The translations under genes and the position numbers were made by a program. The notes beneath the pieces were generated by a model that was given only the letters and a program-made list of their open reading frames with translations, ran no database searches and was not told the origin of the DNA. Positions 4,939 through 52,040 of a DNA stretch of 64,000 bases are shown piece after piece. Source of the DNA: Vulcanimicrobiota bacterium (GTDB lineage: Bacteria > Vulcanimicrobiota > Vulcanimicrobiia > Vulcanimicrobiales > Vulcanimicrobiaceae); contig PLTN01000170.1 in assembly GCA_003164495.1 (NCBI GenBank), forward strand, positions 1-64,000. Reading direction: 5' to 3'. Each line of letters begins with the position of its first letter. The stretch's first letter is position 1.

Positions 4939-6077
4939 CAGACGGCGCGCCAGAAGAGCTTCGCCGGCGTCTTCGTAAGTACGCGCGGTCGCGCACGTTC
5001 GATCACCACCGTGTCGCCGAGCATCAAGTAACCGGTATCGGGAAAATACTGATTGGGATGGATGACGAACGTCATGCCTTCTTCCAGCGTCGGACCGCCT
5101 TCCGGATCGAGATCGCCCGGCAGCACCGATCCCCGTCCTAAACCGTGACCGCGGGTCCGCATGTACGGCGGGCGGCAGAATTCGCCGTAACCGCCGTCCG
5201 TGATGACCTGGTTTGCGGCTTCTGCGATCGCGGAGCTGCTCTGACCGGGCAATGCGGCCGCGAAGGCTCGGCGCTCCGCCTCGATGAGGATGTTGAAGTT
5301 TTCGACGGTTTTCGGCGTCGGCTCGCCGAGAACGAACGTCCGGCACAGTTGGGCGTGATAGCCCGCGAACGCGGGCGTGATCTCGCCGACGATGACGTCG
5401 CCGGCCTCGAGCCGGCGCTCCGTCGCGCCGCGAACGGCCGTGTTGTGGCTGCCGCCGGCGATCAAACCGAAATTGTCGGAGGCGCCGAGCGACTTCATCG
5501 TCGCTTCAACCTCGGCCGCAAGCTCGTACTCGCGCAGGCCGACCCTCGCGACCTGGCAGAGCGTCGCGAAGCCGGCGTCGGCGATCTCCGCCGCGCGTGC
5601 GATACGCGCGACTTCGGCCGGAGATTTCACCGCGGCCAACCGCGGAATGATCTCGTTCTCGCCCGGTAGCGCGAAACCGGCGAACGACTCCGCTGCGCGC
5701 ACCGATAGCGCGTCGCCCCCGCAGAGCGCGAAGGGCGGCGAGGCTTGCGCGAGCGCCCCGGCAGCCGCCTGCATCAGACCCTTCGCATCGGCCGGCACGA
5801 CGTCCGCGTGGGAAACGAGGCGCTTAGCGCGCGGCGCATCCCACGCCGGCGAAACGAATAGCGTCGGCCGGCCTTCCAGCTGCAGCACGAGCCAGCACGG
5901 ACCCACGGCGTAGAAGTCGGTGAGGTAGAACAGCTCGTCCATGGAGGTCATGTCGTGCTGCGCGCTATCGTAGACGGCCAGCGTAGCGATCTTCTTCTTC
6001 GCCATCTCCGCGCGAACGCGGTCGAGCCGGCCGCGAAGTTCGGTTTCGGAGACGAGGACCGGATCGTCGAGAATCAT
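4938..6077 (-). CDS. Creatinase-like M24-family protein, first of a pair
   Basis: 379 residues. The ATG at 6077 is chosen because GGAGG lies 7 bases before it and MILDDPVLVSETELRGRLDR begins like the family; the frame is open 27 codons further. The catalytic-domain pattern EITPAFAGYHAQLCRTF resembles creatinase (Glu...GYYTALERT) rather than the Asp/Asp metal site of Xaa-Pro peptidases; His311 in RGHGLGRGS and Glu333 in EEGMTFVIHP remain. It probably hydrolyses a small C-N bonded compound in the cytoplasm (inference). It is divergent from the substrate-binding protein gene at 6170. Confidence 0.82.
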   Translation of the reverse strand: MILDDPVLVSETELRGRLDRVRAEMAKKKIATLAVYDSAQHDMTSMDELFYLTDFYAVGPCWLVLQLEGRPTLFVSPAWDAPRAKRLVSHADVVPADAKGLMQAAAGALAQASPPFALCGGDALSVRAAESFAGFALPGENEIIPRLAAVKSPAEVARIARAAEIADAGFATLCQVARVGLREYELAAEVEATMKSLGASDNFGLIAGGSHNTAVRGATERRLEAGDVIVGEITPAFAGYHAQLCRTFVLGEPTPKTVENFNILIEAERRAFAAALPGQSSSAIAEAANQVITDGGYGEFCRPPYMRTRGHGLGRGSVLPGDLDPEGGPTLEEGMTFVIHPNQYFPDTGYLMLGDTVVIERARPRVLTKTPAKLFWRAV

Positions 6078-32763: not shown

Positions 32764-33656
32764 TTGAGCGCCGCCACGATCGTCGCGGTGTCGGTGTCGA
32801 GCATCGAGATGTAGTCGCGCGTCTGCGGCGAAGTTCCGACGGAGTCATCGTAGAGCATCGCAACGCGCGGAATATCCGCGCTGCGCGCGACCGCGTTGAC
32901 CAGGTTCGCGTTGTATTCCGGCTCGGCGAAGATCGCACGCACGTGCGCGGCGCGAGCCGCGTCGATCAGCTGCGCCATATGACCGGCGCTCGGTTCGCTG
33001 CCGGGAACCTCTTCGATCGCACCGAGCGTACGTAAACCATAGCGGCGGTTGTAATACAGCCACGCGTTGTGAAACACGATCATGTTGCGGTTGGCCGCCG
33101 GAATCGTGGCGATCGCCTTGACGATGCGCGCGTTCAACGCGTCGAGCCGCGCGTCGAGCGCCGCGGCGTTCGCGCGATACGTTGGGGCGCCGCCCGGATC
33201 GGCCGCAATCATGGCGTCACGAATTTGGGCGACGTAGTGACGCGCGTTCTGCGGATCGAGCCACAGATGCGGGTTCGCATCGACGATCTGCAAGCCGGCG
33301 CTGCAATCCACCAGCGGCGTTTTCGTGGCACCGGAACGCAGCATCGGGCCGAGCCAGGCTTCGAGGCCGGCGCCGTTCTCGACGATCAGGCCGGCGTCGT
33401 GAGCCCGGACGATGTCGGATGGGGACGGCTCGTAGGTCTCCGGCGAGGCCCCGACCGGCATCAGCGAGGTGACGACGGCGCGGTTGTGCCCCACGTCCGA
33501 GGCCAGCGAGGCCAACAGCGTGGTCGTGGTCAGAACGTCGAGATGCCCCGGAGACGCCGGCGCCGTGGCCGTAGGGCCGCCGCATCCCGCCAACGCGAGG
33601 GCAGCAGCGAGCACTACGCCCCTAATGTCATACTGAGCTTTTCGAAGGATCGCCAC
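32760..33656 (-). CDS. Zinc/manganese ABC transporter substrate-binding lipoprotein (ZnuA type)
   Basis: 298 residues from GTG 33656, or 284 from GTG 33614 (AGGGG 4 bases before it). Lipobox LALAGC. The longer start draws its first 12 residues (MAILRKAQYDIR) from a dispersed repeat, and these supply the positive charge a lipoprotein signal needs. Binding landmarks: VGASPETYEPSPSD (the usual ligand His is Glu here), ANPHLWLDPQNARH, VFHNAWLYYNRRYGL and a late MLYDDSVG. No His-rich loop. Confidence 0.86.
   Translation of the reverse strand: MAILRKAQYDIRGVVLAAALALAGCGGPTATAPASPGHLDVLTTTTLLASLASDVGHNRAVVTSLMPVGASPETYEPSPSDIVRAHDAGLIVENGAGLEAWLGPMLRSGATKTPLVDCSAGLQIVDANPHLWLDPQNARHYVAQIRDAMIAADPGGAPTYRANAAALDARLDALNARIVKAIATIPAANRNMIVFHNAWLYYNRRYGLRTLGAIEEVPGSEPSAGHMAQLIDAARAAHVRAIFAEPEYNANLVNAVARSADIPRVAMLYDDSVGTSPQTRDYISMLDTDTATIVAALK
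33627..33653. repeat. Dispersed palindromic repeat, copy 4 (overlaps znuA-type gene start)
   Basis: GTCATACTGAGCTTTTCGAA continues GGATCGC. Inverted relative to copy 5 at 33709, 55 bases away; the pair brackets the likely promoter. Confidence 0.8.
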
Positions 33657-33708
33657 CCGGGCCGCGTTCGTTATTGCGACTGAGTTCTCATTTTCATTAA
33701 ACGTTGAG
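33654..33708 (-). promoter_or_regulatory. Possible promoter/Fur-family operator of the metal importer
   Basis: An AT-rich island in very GC-rich DNA. Read on the minus strand it contains TTTAATGAAAATGAGAACTC, which loosely resembles Fur/Zur half-sites (TGAAAATGA). It lies directly upstream of the importer genes that end with their own Fur-family gene. Confidence 0.3.
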
Positions 33709-33735
33709 GCGATCCTTCGACGAGCTCAGGGTGAC
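33709..33735. repeat. Dispersed palindromic repeat, copy 5
   Basis: GCGATCCTTCGACGAGCTCA continues GGGTGAC and abuts the stop codon of the TonB receptor gene. Confidence 0.8.
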
Positions 33736-36029
33736 TAGAGGACCGCGGTCACCGTGAGCAGGCCCTGGGCGCCGGCCGACCATTGAGTCGTGTTGAACCC
33801 GTTGTTGACCTTGATCAAGTACTGGTAGCCCGTCAGGTTGAGGACGCTCAGCGCCACCCCGAGGCGATGCGGCGTGGCCTTGCGGCCGATCGACGCGTCG
33901 AACGTCAGGTGCGGCGGCAACCGGCCGGTGCCGTTCTCGAACTGGATCGGGTAACCCGTTCCGTAGTCGGAGCCGACCGATGCGGAGTACTCGCCCTCGC
34001 GGCCGAACCGCCACGCGTAGCCGTCCTTGACCGCGACGGCTTGATCGTGATCCTCCGGTTGCAGCGACGTGTCGGAAATCGCGGACGGCGGGAAGAGAAA
34101 CGTTCCGCCGGAGATGCCGCCGGCGACCGACTGCGAGAACGTTCCCGAGAGGTACCAGTTGGCATGCGGTTGGCGGCCCTCGAGGCGCAACTCGAGACCA
34201 TGCGCCAGCCCGAGCGCGTTGTTGAACACGGCGAAGATCGGCGTCGGAAAGATCTGCGTCGTGTCGAGCACGTTCCACACGTTGCGCTGCCAGGCGTTGA
34301 CGTAACCCTCGATGCCGTTGCCGAACGAATGTGCGAGGCCGGCCTCGTAGTACGATTCGGTTTGCGGCTTCAGGTCGTAGACCGGTAACGCGTCCGAGGG
34401 CGATCCGCCGCCGACGATGTCGGCATCGCGCCGCGTGTCTTCGAGCGACGGTGCGCCGTAGAGCCGCCCGTAGTAGACATGGAACGTCGTGTCCGGCGCG
34501 ACGCGTACGTTCGCGCCGATGCGCGGTTGCACTTGATTGCCTTGTACAAACCCGTCGGACTCATCGTAGCGCAGGCCCACTTGGAGCGAGAAGGCCGCCG
34601 TCGGCGTCCATTTGTCTTGCGCGTACGCAGCGTAGGCGGAACCGTGCTGCGCGGTATTGTCGAGAAACGGCGCCGCACCGGCCGTGACGATCGTCTCGGC
34701 GCTGGTGAAATTTTCCACCGAGCCTTCGATGCCGGCTTTGAACGCGTGGCTGCCGCTGTCGTGACCGTAGACCGTGCGCAATCCGAACGACGTCGCGCGG
34801 CGATCGGAGTCGAGTCCGTCGAGCGAACACGGCGGTGCGGCCGGCGCACAATCGTTCGCGCCGTAGTCGAGCGCCAGCACGTCGTCGGCAAGATCACCCG
34901 CGTACACGACGCGGCTCGAGCGGAACCACGGGATGACCTGCTCGTAGGCACCGCCGGCCGAGGTGTGCGTGTAGTTTGCACTGCCGAAACTGGTGTACTC
35001 GAGTTGTACGTCGTCTTGGCCCGGCACGTTGACGATCGAATCGACCGGCGTCAGCGTTGGATTGACCGGGATCTGATAGGTGTTGAACTGGTTGGAGTAG
35101 TTGAACGCCAGCGTGTCGTGCGGGCCCATGTTCGTGATGGTGCGCAAGAAGAGATCCGACAGGCTCGCGCCATCGTGTGCTTGCGCCTGCGTCGGCGCAT
35201 CGAGACCGCGGTTGCTCCCTTGCGTGTTCGCATCGAGGAACACGTCGGTCGACCCGATCCGCGAAGCCTGCGAGAAACCGTACTGCGAGGTGCCGTAGGT
35301 TCCGATGCCCGCGGAGAACTGCGTGAGCGAACCGTTCGGGATGTCGATGTCGCGCTTGGTCACGATGTTGACCACCGCGCCCGCGCGCTGGCCGCCGAAC
35401 TCTGCCGGGAACGCCCCGGTGAAGATCTCCAGCGAGTCGATGTTGCGGGGGTCGATCACCTCCGAGAAGTTGGAGCTGGTCGTGAGCGGCACCGGCGCGC
35501 CGTCGACTTCATAGGTGACGCCGTGAAAGCCGTGTGCCACCGGTTCGTCGAACGAGAACTCGACGATGCCGGGAACCGTTTCCACCAGCCGGTTGAGGCT
35601 CTGCGACTGGGGCATCGCCGCGATATCGGCGCTGGTGAACGTGGCAACGGATACCGGATTTCCGCCGACGCCGCGCGTCGTCGCGACCGTGCGTCCGATC
35701 TCCGCGGTCGCCCCGATCGCGAGCGCAACGGTGGATACGGAATCCGTCGAAACGTCGACGTCGCTCTGAGCGGCCGGTTTGCCGGCGCTCTCCGCGCGCA
35801 CGGTGTAGCGCCCGAACGCGATCTGTTGGAATGTGAAGCGGCCCCCTGCGTCGGTGACCGTCGTCGCCGTCGTGCCCTCGCCCACGATCGTAACGCGAAC
35901 GCCGGCGGTTGCCGCGCCGTCGATCGTGACGGTGCCGCGCACGGTACCGGTCACGGCGGCCTGCGCCGGCAATGAGAGCATAGGTAATACGAGCGCTGCG
36001 AGCAGCGCTGCTATCCATCGTCCGTTCAT
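33735..36029 (-). CDS. TonB-dependent receptor, probable metal (copper?) uptake
   Basis: 764 residues. Signal peptide to AQAA, then a carboxypeptidase-regulatory-like beta domain (GTVRGTVTIDGAATAGVRVT, GRFTFQQIAFGRYTVRAE), a plug (SLNRLVETVPGIVEFSFDEP, IDSLEIFTGAFPAEFGGQRA, GAVVNIVTKRD) and a barrel with landmark QDKWTPTAAFSLQVGLRYDE; it ends GAQGLLTVTAVL, without the usual terminal Phe. It follows the CusF-like gene by 2 bases and precedes the zinc/manganese importer, hence the metal suggestion. Confidence 0.85.
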   Translation of the reverse strand: MNGRWIAALLAALVLPMLSLPAQAAVTGTVRGTVTIDGAATAGVRVTIVGEGTTATTVTDAGGRFTFQQIAFGRYTVRAESAGKPAAQSDVDVSTDSVSTVALAIGATAEIGRTVATTRGVGGNPVSVATFTSADIAAMPQSQSLNRLVETVPGIVEFSFDEPVAHGFHGVTYEVDGAPVPLTTSSNFSEVIDPRNIDSLEIFTGAFPAEFGGQRAGAVVNIVTKRDIDIPNGSLTQFSAGIGTYGTSQYGFSQASRIGSTDVFLDANTQGSNRGLDAPTQAQAHDGASLSDLFLRTITNMGPHDTLAFNYSNQFNTYQIPVNPTLTPVDSIVNVPGQDDVQLEYTSFGSANYTHTSAGGAYEQVIPWFRSSRVVYAGDLADDVLALDYGANDCAPAAPPCSLDGLDSDRRATSFGLRTVYGHDSGSHAFKAGIEGSVENFTSAETIVTAGAAPFLDNTAQHGSAYAAYAQDKWTPTAAFSLQVGLRYDESDGFVQGNQVQPRIGANVRVAPDTTFHVYYGRLYGAPSLEDTRRDADIVGGGSPSDALPVYDLKPQTESYYEAGLAHSFGNGIEGYVNAWQRNVWNVLDTTQIFPTPIFAVFNNALGLAHGLELRLEGRQPHANWYLSGTFSQSVAGGISGGTFLFPPSAISDTSLQPEDHDQAVAVKDGYAWRFGREGEYSASVGSDYGTGYPIQFENGTGRLPPHLTFDASIGRKATPHRLGVALSVLNLTGYQYLIKVNNGFNTTQWSAGAQGLLTVTAVL

Positions 36030-36031
36030 CG

Positions 36032-36340
36032 TTAGCGACCGTGCTTCGGATCGGGGCGGATGTCGGTTCCCGGCCAGGGCACGATCGACGTATCGATCGT
36101 GGCGTAGATGACCTCACCCACGTGCAGCTTGCGTAAGTCGGCGCGGCGCACGGGTTCCACTTCCATCGTCATCGCCATCGGCATCATCGGAAACGGGTCG
36201 TGATGGATCATGAAGGTGCTGCGTTTTGGATCGATCTTCACGATCGTCCCGTGAATGTGGGCGATCGTTTGCGGCGTCGTCGCCGCAATAGTCAGCGCCA
36301 TGCCGGCGCCGACGACCGCATGAAAAAATTGCGTCGTCAT
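36032..36340 (-). CDS. CusF-like periplasmic copper-binding protein
   Basis: 102 residues. A hydrophobic leader (FFHAVVGAGMALTIAATTPQ) is followed by the CusF OB-fold pattern AHIHGTIVKIDPKRSTFMIH then a Met-rich stretch PFPMMPMAMTMEVEPV, matching the His/Met copper site region of CusF; a canonical Trp is not in the usual place. CusF chaperones Cu(I)/Ag(I) in the periplasm. Two bases from the TonB receptor gene. Confidence 0.8.
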   Translation of the reverse strand: MTTQFFHAVVGAGMALTIAATTPQTIAHIHGTIVKIDPKRSTFMIHHDPFPMMPMAMTMEVEPVRRADLRKLHVGEVIYATIDTSIVPWPGTDIRPDPKHGR

Positions 36341-45216: not shown

Positions 45217-46200
45217 TTACGCGTGGGCGGCTTTCGCCTCGCGAACGAGTTTGGTGAGTTCGGGGACGATTGCGAACGCGTCGCCCACGACGAGCAAGTC
45301 CGCGAAGTCGGCGATCGGAACGCCGGCATCTTTGTTGATCGCGACGATCGTCGCAGCGGTACGCATGCCCACCTTGTGTTGGATGGCACCGGAAATGCCA
45401 ACCGCAACATAGAGCGATGGACTGATGGTCTTTCCGGTTTGTCCGACTTGGTGGCCGTGCGAGACCCAGCCCGCGTCGACGGCCGCGCGCGAAGCGCCGA
45501 CCGCGCCGCCGAATGCTTCGGCGAGATCGTGCAAAATGCCCGTGAACGGCTCCGGACCGGCCATCCCGCGGCCGCCGGAAACGACGACCGACGCTTCCTC
45601 GACACCCAGCTCGGCAGCCGCTTCCTCGACGTCGTCCTCGACCGTCACAATGTATGACTTACCACTCGGAGCAAGCGTTGTAATCTCGCCCGCCCCGGCC
45701 GTGGCGTTCACTGCGAACACGTTCGGCCGGATCGCGGCCACACCGTAATCACAATTCTTGAACGCGCAATTGGTGATCGTTGTTCCGCCCAGCTTGGGCG
45801 ACGTGCAGACCACCCGTCCGTCCGCGACCTCGATCCCGGTGACATCCGCGTTGATCCCGGCGTCGAGACGGCCGGCGAAGCGCGAGCCGACATCGCGTCC
45901 GATCATCGTATTGGCAACGATGATGAGCGCCGGGCCCGCAGTACGGGCAACGGCCTCGAGGGCGTCGACCAGCGGGTCGACCCCGGCCTTGGCCAAGTTC
46001 GCATCGTCGAGGACGTGGATCCGGTCGACCGGATAGGCCTTGAGCGACTCCGCGACCGCGGCGGCCTGCGCGCCCGCGACGACGGCGTGCACCGCTCCGC
46101 CGAGGGCGCCGGCCGCCGAACGCGCGGCGCAGATCGCCTCGATCGACGAGCGACGCGCAGCCCCGTTCTTGTGCTCGATGAAGGCGATGACGTCTTTCAC
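45217..46200 (-). CDS. etfA: Electron transfer flavoprotein alpha subunit
   Basis: 327 residues from GTG 46200, overlapping the etfB TGA as GTGA. N-terminal domain (KDVIAFIEHKNGAARRSSIE), then FAD domain with VVVSGGRGMAGPEPFTGILH, VGASRAAVDAGWVSHGHQVG, QTGKTISPSLYVAVGISGAI and QHKVGMRTAATIVAINKDA. With etfB it carries electrons from acyl-CoA or other dehydrogenases to the quinone pool. No dehydrogenase or ETF-quinone reductase gene adjoins it. Confidence 0.95.
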   Translation of the reverse strand: MKDVIAFIEHKNGAARRSSIEAICAARSAAGALGGAVHAVVAGAQAAAVAESLKAYPVDRIHVLDDANLAKAGVDPLVDALEAVARTAGPALIIVANTMIGRDVGSRFAGRLDAGINADVTGIEVADGRVVCTSPKLGGTTITNCAFKNCDYGVAAIRPNVFAVNATAGAGEITTLAPSGKSYIVTVEDDVEEAAAELGVEEASVVVSGGRGMAGPEPFTGILHDLAEAFGGAVGASRAAVDAGWVSHGHQVGQTGKTISPSLYVAVGISGAIQHKVGMRTAATIVAINKDAGVPIADFADLLVVGDAFAIVPELTKLVREAKAAHA

Positions 46201-46985
46201 AGCAGTTGCCGGCTCTTGAGAAAGTCGAGCACGATGCGCGCGCCGTCGGCGCCGTCGGCCGCCGTGACGGTTCGGCCTTTCTCGCGCGGCGGCGGCGTTG
46301 CGAGCGCCAGCACTTCCGTACGCGAGCCGTCGCTGCCGACGGCTTTGGTCAAGCCCAGATCGGTGAGTGCGAGCGTTTTGATGTCCTTTTTCTTCGCGCC
46401 CATGATGCCTTTGAGCGATGGATAACGCGGCTCGTTGGCGCTCTTCGTCACGCTGGCCAATGCAGGCAACGGCGCGCTCACGGTTTGGTAGCCGGTCTCC
46501 GTTTCGCGCTTCACCCGTAACCGGCCGCCGTCGATCTCGAGGTGGCGCGCGTACGTGAGCGCGGGAACGCCGAGATATTCGGCCAGCATGCCGGGCAGAT
46601 CGCCCGAGATCGCATCGGTCGATTGCGTTCCGGTCAGCACGAGATCGAAGCCGCCGGCTTTGATACCGTGCGCGATCGCATACGCGGTCGCCCACAGATC
46701 CGAACCGGCAAGCCCGGGATCGGAGAGAATCACGGCGTCGTCGGCGCCCATTGCGAGCGCCTTGCGCACGACTTCGCGGCCGCTCTCGGGCGTCATCGAG
46801 AAGATCGTCACGGTCGAACCGTCGGCGAGTTTGTCGCGCAGTTGCAACGCCGCCTCGATCGCATATTCATCGAACGGATTGAGCACGATATCGACGCCGC
46901 TGCGCACGAGCCGTTTCGTCGCCGGATCGATTCGTTTCTCGGCGGTCGTGTCCGGGACGAGTTTTACGGTGACGACGATTTTCAA
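46197..46985 (-). CDS. etfB: Electron transfer flavoprotein beta subunit
   Basis: 262 residues. The TTG at 46985 is chosen: GGGAG lies 6 bases before it and the protein then starts MKIVVTVKLVPDTTAEK, as the family does; a TTG two codons earlier is possible. Marks: IVLNPFDEYAIEAALQLRDK, LVLTGTQSTDAISGDLPGML and SVTKSANEPRYPSLKGIMGA (AMP-binding). It pairs with etfA. Confidence 0.95.
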   Translation of the reverse strand: MKIVVTVKLVPDTTAEKRIDPATKRLVRSGVDIVLNPFDEYAIEAALQLRDKLADGSTVTIFSMTPESGREVVRKALAMGADDAVILSDPGLAGSDLWATAYAIAHGIKAGGFDLVLTGTQSTDAISGDLPGMLAEYLGVPALTYARHLEIDGGRLRVKRETETGYQTVSAPLPALASVTKSANEPRYPSLKGIMGAKKKDIKTLALTDLGLTKAVGSDGSRTEVLALATPPPREKGRTVTAADGADGARIVLDFLKSRQLL

Positions 46986-47003
46986 GCCCAACTCCCGACA
47001 CGC

Positions 47004-49061: not shown

Positions 49062-49389
49062 TGGGATGACCGAGGCTCGAACTCGGATGCCCTCGCGGGC
49101 GGCAGATTTTCTTACCACTTCGGCTTTCGCCGCCCGGCCTTCATTTTGGAGAAGCCGGTTCGTGGTCTGGACTGTGCCTTGGCCGTTGGGGTCCGCCGTA
49201 GTGGACCCCGGTAGGCCGCGCCCGTCCAGTCTCTACACCTTCCGCCGGCAACAACCGGCGGCTTGGCTCGGCGTTGTCAGGGCACCGCGTGCCTCAGAGT
49301 TCACCGAATTTGAGCGCATCCCGGCCGGAGTTTCCACCCGGCCGGCTCACGTGTAAGTCTGCTGTGTCTGCCTATTCCACCATCATCCC
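49062..49389 (-). tRNA. trnL(UAA): tRNA-Leu(UAA) interrupted by a group I intron
   Basis: Exon 1 is 49389-49355 and exon 2 is 49110-49062. Joined, they fold as a class II tRNA: acceptor GGGATGA/TCATCCC (7 bp), D-arm GTGGAATAGGCAGACAC, anticodon arm GCAGA-CTTAAAA-TCTGC with anticodon TAA, long variable arm GCCC-GCGA-GGGC, T-arm CCGAG-TTCGAGC-CTCGG, discriminator A. CCA is not encoded. The break falls after U34 of the anticodon, exactly where cyanobacterial and plastid tRNA-Leu introns sit. Coding for leucine (UUA/UUG) needs splicing. Confidence 0.93.
49111..49354 (-). ncRNA. Group I self-splicing intron (244 nt) in tRNA-Leu(UAA)
   Basis: It starts after exon U and ends with G (49111), as group I introns must. 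P1 forms between exon CTT plus A and intron TGAG, with U.G at the 5' splice site. Conserved core pieces match the cyanobacterial intron: GGATGCGCTCAAA, GCCGAGCCAAGCCG (about 49257-49270) and AAGGTGTAGAGACTGGACGG (49222-49241). Other stems: CCGGCCGG pair (P2), GGGGTCC/GGACCCC (P8) and CGGC-GAAA-GCCG near the 3' end. It encodes no protein of its own, so no homing endonuclease. Confidence 0.9.
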
Positions 49390-49484: not shown

Positions 49485-52040
49485 ATGTCCCTAACCCGTG
49501 AACGCCTGATTGCGCTGCTCGCGGACTCGGCGCTAACCAGTGTCGAACTCGTGATCGCTCCGCCGGGCTTCGGCAAGACAACACTGCTCCGCGAGTACGC
49601 AAGCGCGGAAACCGGGGCCGCCTTTGTCGTGCTCCCCGAAGGGGCCGACCTCGAGGCGTTCGTCCGATGCGTCATTGCAGCGACCGTGCCCTCGGCGCTG
49701 CGTTCGATCGGGGCGGTTTTCGAAACTCCGGCAACAGAGAATATCGAGCAGCGTGCCGGCGAGTGGCTCGTCTCGCGTCTACGCGAGTTCAGCGGAACGC
49801 TGATCGTCGATGACTTTCACCGTGCTGTTGCGGACGAACGCGTCGCACGCGTGCTCGTAGGTGCGATCGCCGCCACGCACGGCCGGATGCGCTGGATCGT
49901 AGCATCGCGTGAGTCGCCGGCATTTCCGATGGGCTCGTGGATCGCGCGCGGCTGGATGGGATTACCCATCACGGGGGACGATCTCGCGTTCACGGCCGAA
50001 GAGGCCGGCGAGCTTGCGAAGTCGCTGGAAATTTTCGTCTCAAACGACGGTCTCACAGCGATCGTCGATGACACGCTGGGCTGGCCGATCGGTGTGCGGC
50101 TCGCGCTGAGTCTCGTCGCGCGAAAGCGCGATACCGGTCAGACGCGAGTTCAAACGCGCGAAGCGTTGTTCGCGTTGCTCGACGACGAAGTGTGGCAGCC
50201 ACTCGACCATGGCCTGAAGTCGCTCGTCGCCGCAGCCGCCTTGATGCCGGCGCCGACGATTTCAACGCTGATCGCGGCGGGATACGCCGACGCGCGTGCC
50301 GGGATGACGAGCGTGTTCGCCAAGGTTCCATTCATCACGGCGATCGACGACAGCGCGTTCATAATTCACGACCTTTTCCGCGACTTCGTCACGACGCAGG
50401 CATCCCCGGAAAACACCAACGGCACCGACGCTGTCGCGAACCGCGTCGGTTTTGCTCTCGTAGCTGCGGGCAATCCGGCCGACGGGCTACGTCTTCTCAT
50501 TGCGGCCGGCCGCATCGACGATGTGCAAGACGCGCTTGCGGTGCACGCTTTTGATCTACTGGAAACTGGACAGCGCGGAGTCATCAACGCGGCGATGACA
50601 TTCCTCGGCGAGCGCAGTCTGAACGATACCGGCATCGCGCTCGCCATCCGCGGCGCATTGGCGTTTGCCGACGGCTCGGCTTCGAATTCGACGAATCTCT
50701 TCGTGCGCGCACTCGGACGTAAGATGCCACCGGCTATACGCAGTGAGGTTTCGCGACGGTTGGCGCTCGCATATGCCAACCGTGGAATGCTGCACGAGGC
50801 GCTTGACGCCTTGAAGCCTCTTGAAGCAGACGTGTCCATCTCGTTGGAAGACCGGCTCGAAGCCCAAGCAATGGCAGCCGCGTTTATTTCCGCTACGGGC
50901 ACCAGCGACCGCGCTGATGTCGAGGCAACGATTGTCAAACTCGAGGCCCAAATATCGCGCGTCCCACCCAATGTTCAGGTGCGCCTATTGAGGTACCTCG
51001 GGAACGCTGCACTGGCCAACCGCGATCCGGAGAGAGCCGAGCGCCTTTCCCTTGACGCGGCCTTACTCGCGACCGAACTCGGCATGGATACGTTTGCGGC
51101 ACTCGCGTACAGCACGCTCTACAGCCTCGCCGCTAGGAACGACCCCGATGCCACTCGAGCACGCTCGTTCTCGCGCTCTCAAGCGATTGCCGCCGAACGG
51201 GCCGCGAACACCGCATTACGGGTTTATGCCTTGCGGGCCCAATATATTATTGCTGCCACGAACGTTGAAGTCGAGGAGGCGCAGACCCTCGAATCGACCA
51301 TGGCGTCGCTCGTGGACACCCGCACCTATCGCGACGCATTTCACTTTCGCTTCGCGCGCGCGCTCCAGTCTGTCGCAACGGGGGACATTGCAAAGGCCGA
51401 ATCTTCCCTACGGTCAATGCCGCAAACCTCAATTTCCGCCGCTGAGCGCATCCGCCTCGAAGCTTTTCTACTGATCCTTCTTCTACTGCGCGGCAAGCGA
51501 TCGGAGGTGGCTACCGTCATAGAACGCAGCCTTTTGGCCGAAGCCCCACGAGATCACGGCGGCCGAATCGAGATGGCGTATGCCTATGCCTACCGTGGCA
51601 TCGCATATTGGGCACTCGATCGCCCCGCGCAAGCGCGTAAAGCATTTGAATTCAACACGGCCGACCTTCCGCGGCGCGACCGGCTCGTGGTCGATGTCTT
51701 CAAGGCGCTAGCTCATCTCCCGCATCCATTGCCGGGCAGCGGCGATATCGATCGACTCGCTTCAAGCCTCGTCGCCGGCAGCTACAGGGCGTATGCGGAG
51801 CTGCTCGTACAGTTTGTGGAGCTCGACGCAAACGATGTCGCGCTGAGTCCGACGGAGCTCGAAACGCTACGCGAATTCGACCGCCACGGCGGCCGGGCAG
51901 CCGACGTTGCCAGGGCGCTCGGGAAATCGAAATTCACCGTCCAGAACCAGATCCAGAGCGCCATCAGAAAGCTCGGCTGTTCCGGCCGCGCTGAAGCTCT
52001 GGCCTATGCACGACAGCGCGGGTGGCTACATAGGGCTTAA
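49485..52040 (+). CDS. Large ATP-binding LuxR-family regulator (MalT/LAL type)
   Basis: 851 residues. P-loop VIAPPGFGKTTLLREYAS (Lys31), Walker B GTLIVDDFH, a STAND-like ATPase region to about 330, then a long all-helical TPR-like stretch and a C-terminal LuxR helix-turn-helix: LSPTELETLREFDRHGGRAA, DVARALGKSKFTVQNQIQSA. Such proteins bind an inducer and ATP, then activate nearby promoters. The next gene is a tiny peptide with a palindrome-containing promoter, a plausible target. Confidence 0.88.
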   Translation: MSLTRERLIALLADSALTSVELVIAPPGFGKTTLLREYASAETGAAFVVLPEGADLEAFVRCVIAATVPSALRSIGAVFETPATENIEQRAGEWLVSRLREFSGTLIVDDFHRAVADERVARVLVGAIAATHGRMRWIVASRESPAFPMGSWIARGWMGLPITGDDLAFTAEEAGELAKSLEIFVSNDGLTAIVDDTLGWPIGVRLALSLVARKRDTGQTRVQTREALFALLDDEVWQPLDHGLKSLVAAAALMPAPTISTLIAAGYADARAGMTSVFAKVPFITAIDDSAFIIHDLFRDFVTTQASPENTNGTDAVANRVGFALVAAGNPADGLRLLIAAGRIDDVQDALAVHAFDLLETGQRGVINAAMTFLGERSLNDTGIALAIRGALAFADGSASNSTNLFVRALGRKMPPAIRSEVSRRLALAYANRGMLHEALDALKPLEADVSISLEDRLEAQAMAAAFISATGTSDRADVEATIVKLEAQISRVPPNVQVRLLRYLGNAALANRDPERAERLSLDAALLATELGMDTFAALAYSTLYSLAARNDPDATRARSFSRSQAIAAERAANTALRVYALRAQYIIAATNVEVEEAQTLESTMASLVDTRTYRDAFHFRFARALQSVATGDIAKAESSLRSMPQTSISAAERIRLEAFLLILLLLRGKRSEVATVIERSLLAEAPRDHGGRIEMAYAYAYRGIAYWALDRPAQARKAFEFNTADLPRRDRLVVDVFKALAHLPHPLPGSGDIDRLASSLVAGSYRAYAELLVQFVELDANDVALSPTELETLREFDRHGGRAADVARALGKSKFTVQNQIQSAIRKLGCSGRAEALAYARQRGWLHRA

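Follow-up and report, generated by a model that had tools for sequence, protein, structure and literature searches.

Cyanobacteria and plastids share an old, textbook intron in tRNA-Leu(UAA), and bacterial tRNA introns of its kind bear the subgroup name IC3. The same subgroup name appears in a review (PMC3984707). According to another review from 2014 (PMC4033280), group I introns occur in the tRNAs of cyanobacteria and of a few alpha- and betaproteobacteria, with the tRNA-Leu(UAA) intron in cyanobacteria and plastids. The tRNAscan-SE 2.0 paper (PMC8450103) describes bacterial genomes in which an fMet or Ile2 tRNA was missed owing to group I introns. Beggiatoaceae carry an interrupted tRNA-Leu-TAA (PMC4853749), which, going by its published description, resembles the gene described here. 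We analysed a 64-kb stretch of DNA (the window) on contig G000:C154, part of a MAG of Candidatus Eremiobacterota, in which a tRNA-Leu(UAA) gene is interrupted by an intron of this known kind. What appears to be new is the host phylum: in the open-access literature we found no earlier report of a tRNA-Leu(UAA) intron in Eremiobacterota or WPS-2.

The window intron resembles the cyanobacterial and plastid IC3 intron in its tRNA, its insertion after U34, its P3-P7 motifs, its similar length and, in the copies compared, the lack of an ORF. It differs from the cyanobacterial copies in belonging to a separate clade, in the fifth pair of P7 (G-C versus mostly C-G), in the sequences of P3, P8 and P9, and in its host. 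The tRNA-Leu(UAA) introns of Alphaproteobacteria, Bacteroidota, Acidobacteriota and Bdellovibrionota match it in tRNA, site and core, but they reside in other hosts and form clades of their own. IC3-like introns in tRNA-Arg(CCU), tRNA-Ile/Met(CAU) and tRNA-fMet, including the Azoarcus type, share the core motifs, so that one pattern covers them in many bacteria, whereas their tRNAs and anticodon-loop positions are different.

A tRNA-Leu(UAA) gene interrupted after U34

With introns allowed, ARAGORN identified a tRNA-Leu(taa) with a full class II cloverleaf and a 244-nt intron in the anticodon loop, on the minus strand (complement 49062..49389). The 5′ exon (49355..49389, minus strand, 35 nt) ends with U34 of the anticodon, and the 3′ exon (49062..49110, minus strand, 49 nt) begins with A35. 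Joined, the exons measure 84 nt, carry the anticodon loop CUUAAAA and form the class II cloverleaf with UAA anticodon expected of a functional tRNA-Leu. An earlier note on this DNA had located the gene exactly to the base, leaving the strand unstated, and had correctly put a 244-nt insert after U34 (...GACUU/intron/AAAAUC...). Run by default, without introns, ARAGORN reported zero tRNAs in the 64-kb window. Its intron-tolerant run proposed two more genes, a tRNA-Ser at 5468-5619 and a tRNA-Val at 33468-36177 whose "intron" would measure 2.6 kb; both fail to match the core model R2 described below, and we take them for chance hits.

The insertion between U34 and A35 (GACUU/AAAAU) is alike in the window gene and in the sixteen cyanobacterial tRNA-Leu(UAA) intron copies that were added to our set, and the 5′ exon-intron boundary is conserved in 48 Eremiobacterota copies. 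Homologous introns were re-cut at GACTT/...G/AAAAT, the ARAGORN isotypes Ser, Phe and Trp there being misplaced boundaries. A terminal G ends 110 of 110 collected tRNA-Leu introns, partly by construction, as the boundary was cut at the G before AAAAT. Divergent from the tRNA gene lies an 851-aa protein (49485-52040, plus strand), by look an AAA/LuxR-type regulator, with a sub-threshold Pfam match to AAA_22.

The group I core and its covariation

We assigned helices P1-P9 by hand in the window intron (49111..49354, 244 nt, no ORF), obtaining a 55-pair structure, and examined it on two alignments, A1 (45 Eremiobacterota introns) and A2 (58 introns from several phyla). All intron features given here lie on the minus strand. 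P1, with its U.G splice pair, arises where the internal guide GAG (49346..49348) meets the exon bases CUU (49355-49357); P1 is paired in every scored row of A1, U34.G7 is kept in every one of these rows, and the last intron base is G. The splice pair and the terminal G that the earlier note had picked out are thus present, the latter as the omega G at 49111, and its core pieces GCCGAGCCAAGCCG and AAGGTGTAGAGACTGGACGG are there too, as parts of P4/P6 and P6/P7/P3.

The P2 hairpin (49321..49345) has a GNRA-type loop, GGAA, and shows compensatory changes at six of its eight pairs in A1. P3 joins GCGCUC (49312..49317) to GGGCGC (49218..49223). P4 encloses P5 (49267..49308) and is formed by 49304-49308 with 49267-49271, its outermost U.G pair being lost in about half of the relatives. 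In the following hairpin (49238..49266), P6 pairs 49265-49266 with 49238-49239, and pairs of P6a have changed on both sides. P7, the guanosine-binding helix, consists of GACUG (49227..49231) and CAGUC (49170..49174), and the P8 hairpin (49181..49217) shows compensatory changes across phyla. P9, with P9a and a GAAA-capped P9b, occupies 49114..49166, its pairing counts being those on A1. No homing endonuclease ORF is present in the 244-nt intron, the whole length of which is taken up by P1-P9. Four other tRNA-Leu introns (L032, L040, L041 and L220) carry palindromic repeats of the CCCTGAGCTTGTCGAAGGG type in their peripheral loops (P5, P6, P9), so repeats have landed in the intron with the core left intact.

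On A1, pairing holds in 94.6% of the cells of this structure, compared with 31-41% when partners were slid by 1-3 columns, and 278 cells carry changes on both sides, compared with 87 in shuffles. Because P3 and P7 are invariant within Eremiobacterota, these helices were compared across phyla on A2. P3 is paired in all 58 sequences, several of which carry compensatory changes at three of the six pairs. The fifth pair of P7 varies across phyla and is likewise paired in 58/58: the window intron has G-C, most proteobacteria have A-U, some Bacteroidota U-A and most cyanobacteria C-G. The earlier note had staked its reading on a P3-P7 core that can fold, and cross-phylum covariation supports both helices. 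The anatomy, covariation and conservation of the intron are direct observations.

The earlier note had named the lack of a group I model hit as grounds for refutation, and taken by itself the Rfam search that it proposed would count against the claim: RF00028 had no match in the window at gathering score or E≤5, nor anywhere in genome G000. This is a false negative, because L009-L011, three members of the same family whose tRNA-Leu(UAA) is likewise interrupted, also score just 30-35 bits against a cut-off of 50, and because an independent core model recovers the intron. That model, R2, a covariance model of the P3-P7 core trained on non-Eremiobacterota tRNA-Leu introns alone, has the intron as its sole match in the 64-kb window (93.4 bits, E 8.7e-24). 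A covariance model that includes Eremiobacterota gives the window intron 116 bits, partly by construction. A match to RF00028 is a criterion set by a database and does not define group I introns. A1, A2 and the core model together reveal the pseudoknotted P3-P7 core with P4-P6 and P8 that marks a group I intron, and this core can be aligned with those of cyanobacterial and proteobacterial tRNA introns, which places the intron in subgroup IC3. Under a relaxed threshold, Rfam also returned RAGATH-5 on the other strand at E 3.4, which is chance level.

Predicted splicing and the probable need for it

Group I chemistry consists of two transesterifications, initiated by guanosine (PMC3984707). By analogy with studied relatives in Anabaena and Azoarcus, we infer two catalytic splicing steps for the window intron. 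The precursor RNA would adopt the P1-P9 ribozyme fold, and a guanosine bound in P7 would attack at the U.G pair of P1, just after U34. Once released, the 5′ exon would in turn attack behind the terminal G, which would link U34 to A35 and restore the loop CUUAAAA. Splicing may be helped by a protein.

The tRNA set of G000 (a 5.37-Mb MAG, 84% complete, with 7% contamination) was taken from an RF00005 search. It includes Leu(CAA) and Leu(GAG); a second, uninterrupted tRNA-Leu(UAA), which the earlier note had named, together with a lack of splicing, as grounds for refutation, was not found in this 84%-complete assembly, though one may lie in the missing part. Of the roughly 1,600 Leu codons in the window's predicted ORFs, 37 are UUA. 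Since no other UUA-reading tRNA was found and UUA is used, splicing is probably needed for normal growth. The incompleteness of the assembly and the rarity of UUA would allow the interrupted gene to be a dead remnant, with another tRNA decoding UUA, but its cloverleaf and core are intact, compensatory changes have been maintained in relatives, and no second copy was found in G000, nor beside the interrupted copy in any surveyed relative. We consider a dead remnant extremely improbable; the gene is almost certainly a functioning tRNA-Leu(UAA) gene with a group I intron of the type known from bacterial tRNAs (IC3-like). Because of the intron, the gene escapes both default ARAGORN and the Rfam cut-offs, and such genomes seem to lack a tRNA that they probably need.

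Residence in Candidatus Eremiobacterota and ancestry

Among 149 genomes of the phylum, a 20-nt core pattern had matches in 54 and the covariance model in 56, and most of these matches are tRNA-Leu(UAA) genes from families f1 and f3 of one class. A pattern for the anticodon arm of uninterrupted tRNA-Leu(UAA) matched 48 genomes, some of them loosely, and many class-mates have the uninterrupted gene instead of the intron-bearing one. The two forms occurred together in 0/149 surveyed genomes. Of the few genomes matched by both patterns, G035, G056 and G092 have their intron in tRNA-fMet, and in G125 and G130 the match is at the exon-intron junction itself. Neither the patterns nor the core model found a tRNA-Leu(UAA), interrupted or not, in the 93%-complete G001, which belongs to the window's genus; the gene is perhaps missing from that assembly.

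Pfam and synteny identify a conserved neighbour of the tRNA gene, outside the intron: etfB (electron transfer flavoprotein; 46197..46991, minus strand), with etfA downstream, within 45217-46695 (ETF, E 1e-46; ETF_alpha, 2e-31). In the window, about 2.1 kb and one ORF separate tRNA-Leu(UAA) from etfB. Both etf genes are present in 13 of 20 class-mate stretches covering 7-16 kb around tRNA-Leu(UAA), and etfB alone in one more. The etf-linked tRNA-Leu(UAA) copies come from both f1 and f3 and include genes with and without the intron, which indicates gain or loss at one orthologous locus. In the tree described below the intron has one origin within the class, and it sits at this orthologous locus, where it would have been carried with repeated losses or gains. 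Because the intron has no ORF, homing by an endonuclease of its own is impossible, and any present-day spread would require either that the locus recombine or that help come in trans.

To survey other bacteria, we scanned GTDB species genomes for the core, which gave at least 118 stretches; the counts describe spread, not frequency. Among the matches listed, tRNA-Leu(UAA) introns occurred in Proteobacteria (at least 31 in Alpha-, two in Beta- and two in Gammaproteobacteria, and at least three unclassified), in Bacteroidota (at least four), in Acidobacteriota (at least three) and in Bdellovibrionota (at least one). Class-wide residence in Candidatus Eremiobacterota, together with this scatter in other groups at the same nucleotide, widens the host range, and the intron occurs more broadly than the cyanobacteria and plastid picture would lead one to expect. 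The description "cyanobacterial-type" in the earlier note was apt for the tRNA and for the cyanobacterial and plastid site, but it is too narrow, as other phyla share the site and the Eremiobacterota introns form a clade apart from the cyanobacterial one.

We then considered ancestry in a tree of 110 bacterial introns, built on only about 210 alignment columns. All 48 Eremiobacterota tRNA-Leu copies formed one clade (100/100) on a long branch. The 16 cyanobacterial copies formed a separate clade (100/100), placed beside Bacteroidota in the best tree, and the window intron lies outside it. The tree tests used the set without its very long-branched rows, and both clades hold without the longest branches. 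A fairly recent transfer from a cyanobacterium into the lineage, of the intron alone or with its tRNA gene, would fit the identical tRNA and site and the similar core of the cyanobacterial copies; a grouping of Eremiobacterota with Cyanobacteria, absent from the best tree, passed the AU test without rejection (p 0.22). The two clades are nevertheless distinct, each on a long branch, and the fifth pair of P7 differs. Moreover, both f1 and f3 have the intron at an orthologous locus, so any transfer must be old. A recent cyanobacterial transfer is unsupported and, in our judgement, very unlikely.

Transfer into the class from a non-cyanobacterial group such as Alphaproteobacteria, followed by spread within the class, is a serious candidate, to which we give somewhat less than an even chance. 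The nearest rows outside the phylum in the full tree are alphaproteobacterial, some with a G-C fifth pair in P7, the intron is patchy in the class, and the best tree places f3 copies among those of f1. Support for the joining branches is weak (34/72) on this short alignment, however, f1 as a clade without f3 was not rejected by the AU test (p 0.45), and losses would fit the patchiness as well. It is also possible, though rather unlikely, that the intron of tRNA-Leu(UAA) has long been a bacterial element of this one site, passed on mainly by vertical descent and lost many times across several phyla (Eremiobacterota, Proteobacteria, Bacteroidota, Acidobacteriota and Cyanobacteria), the cyanobacterial and plastid intron being one surviving branch of a wider, older lineage. 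The earlier note had offered an ancient shared intron or a transfer; within the class, the intron sits at an orthologous locus and has a single origin in the tree, whereas between phyla more than one order of the clades fits the data (AU p 0.22). These copies provide data for testing whether the tRNA-Leu(UAA) intron is ancient or was repeatedly transferred.

Related introns turned up in other genes. A second IC3-like intron lies in tRNA-fMet(CAU) of class-mates L030 (1512-2279, minus strand), L024, L031, L047 and L222, where the exons are joined as GGGCTC/ATAACCC. The L030 copy contains an ORF with a PDDEXK_5 domain (PF11645, E 3e-46), likely a homing endonuclease, whereas the tRNA-Leu introns are without one. 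Elsewhere in the phylum, in other classes, tRNA-Tyr(GUA) and tRNA-Asn(GUU) contain related introns (L320 and L321 in G049, L021 and L223 in G050). Outside the phylum, the same core occurs in tRNA genes of L133 and L134 (Actinomycetota), L173 (Planctomycetota), L156 (Kaiserbacteria) and L197 (Omnitrophota), the host tRNAs being apparently tRNA-Asn and tRNA-fMet, with unsure ARAGORN isotypes. Many class-mates also have group I introns in apparent 23S rRNA (L001-L006, L008, L012-L015 and L017-L020), some with long inserts.
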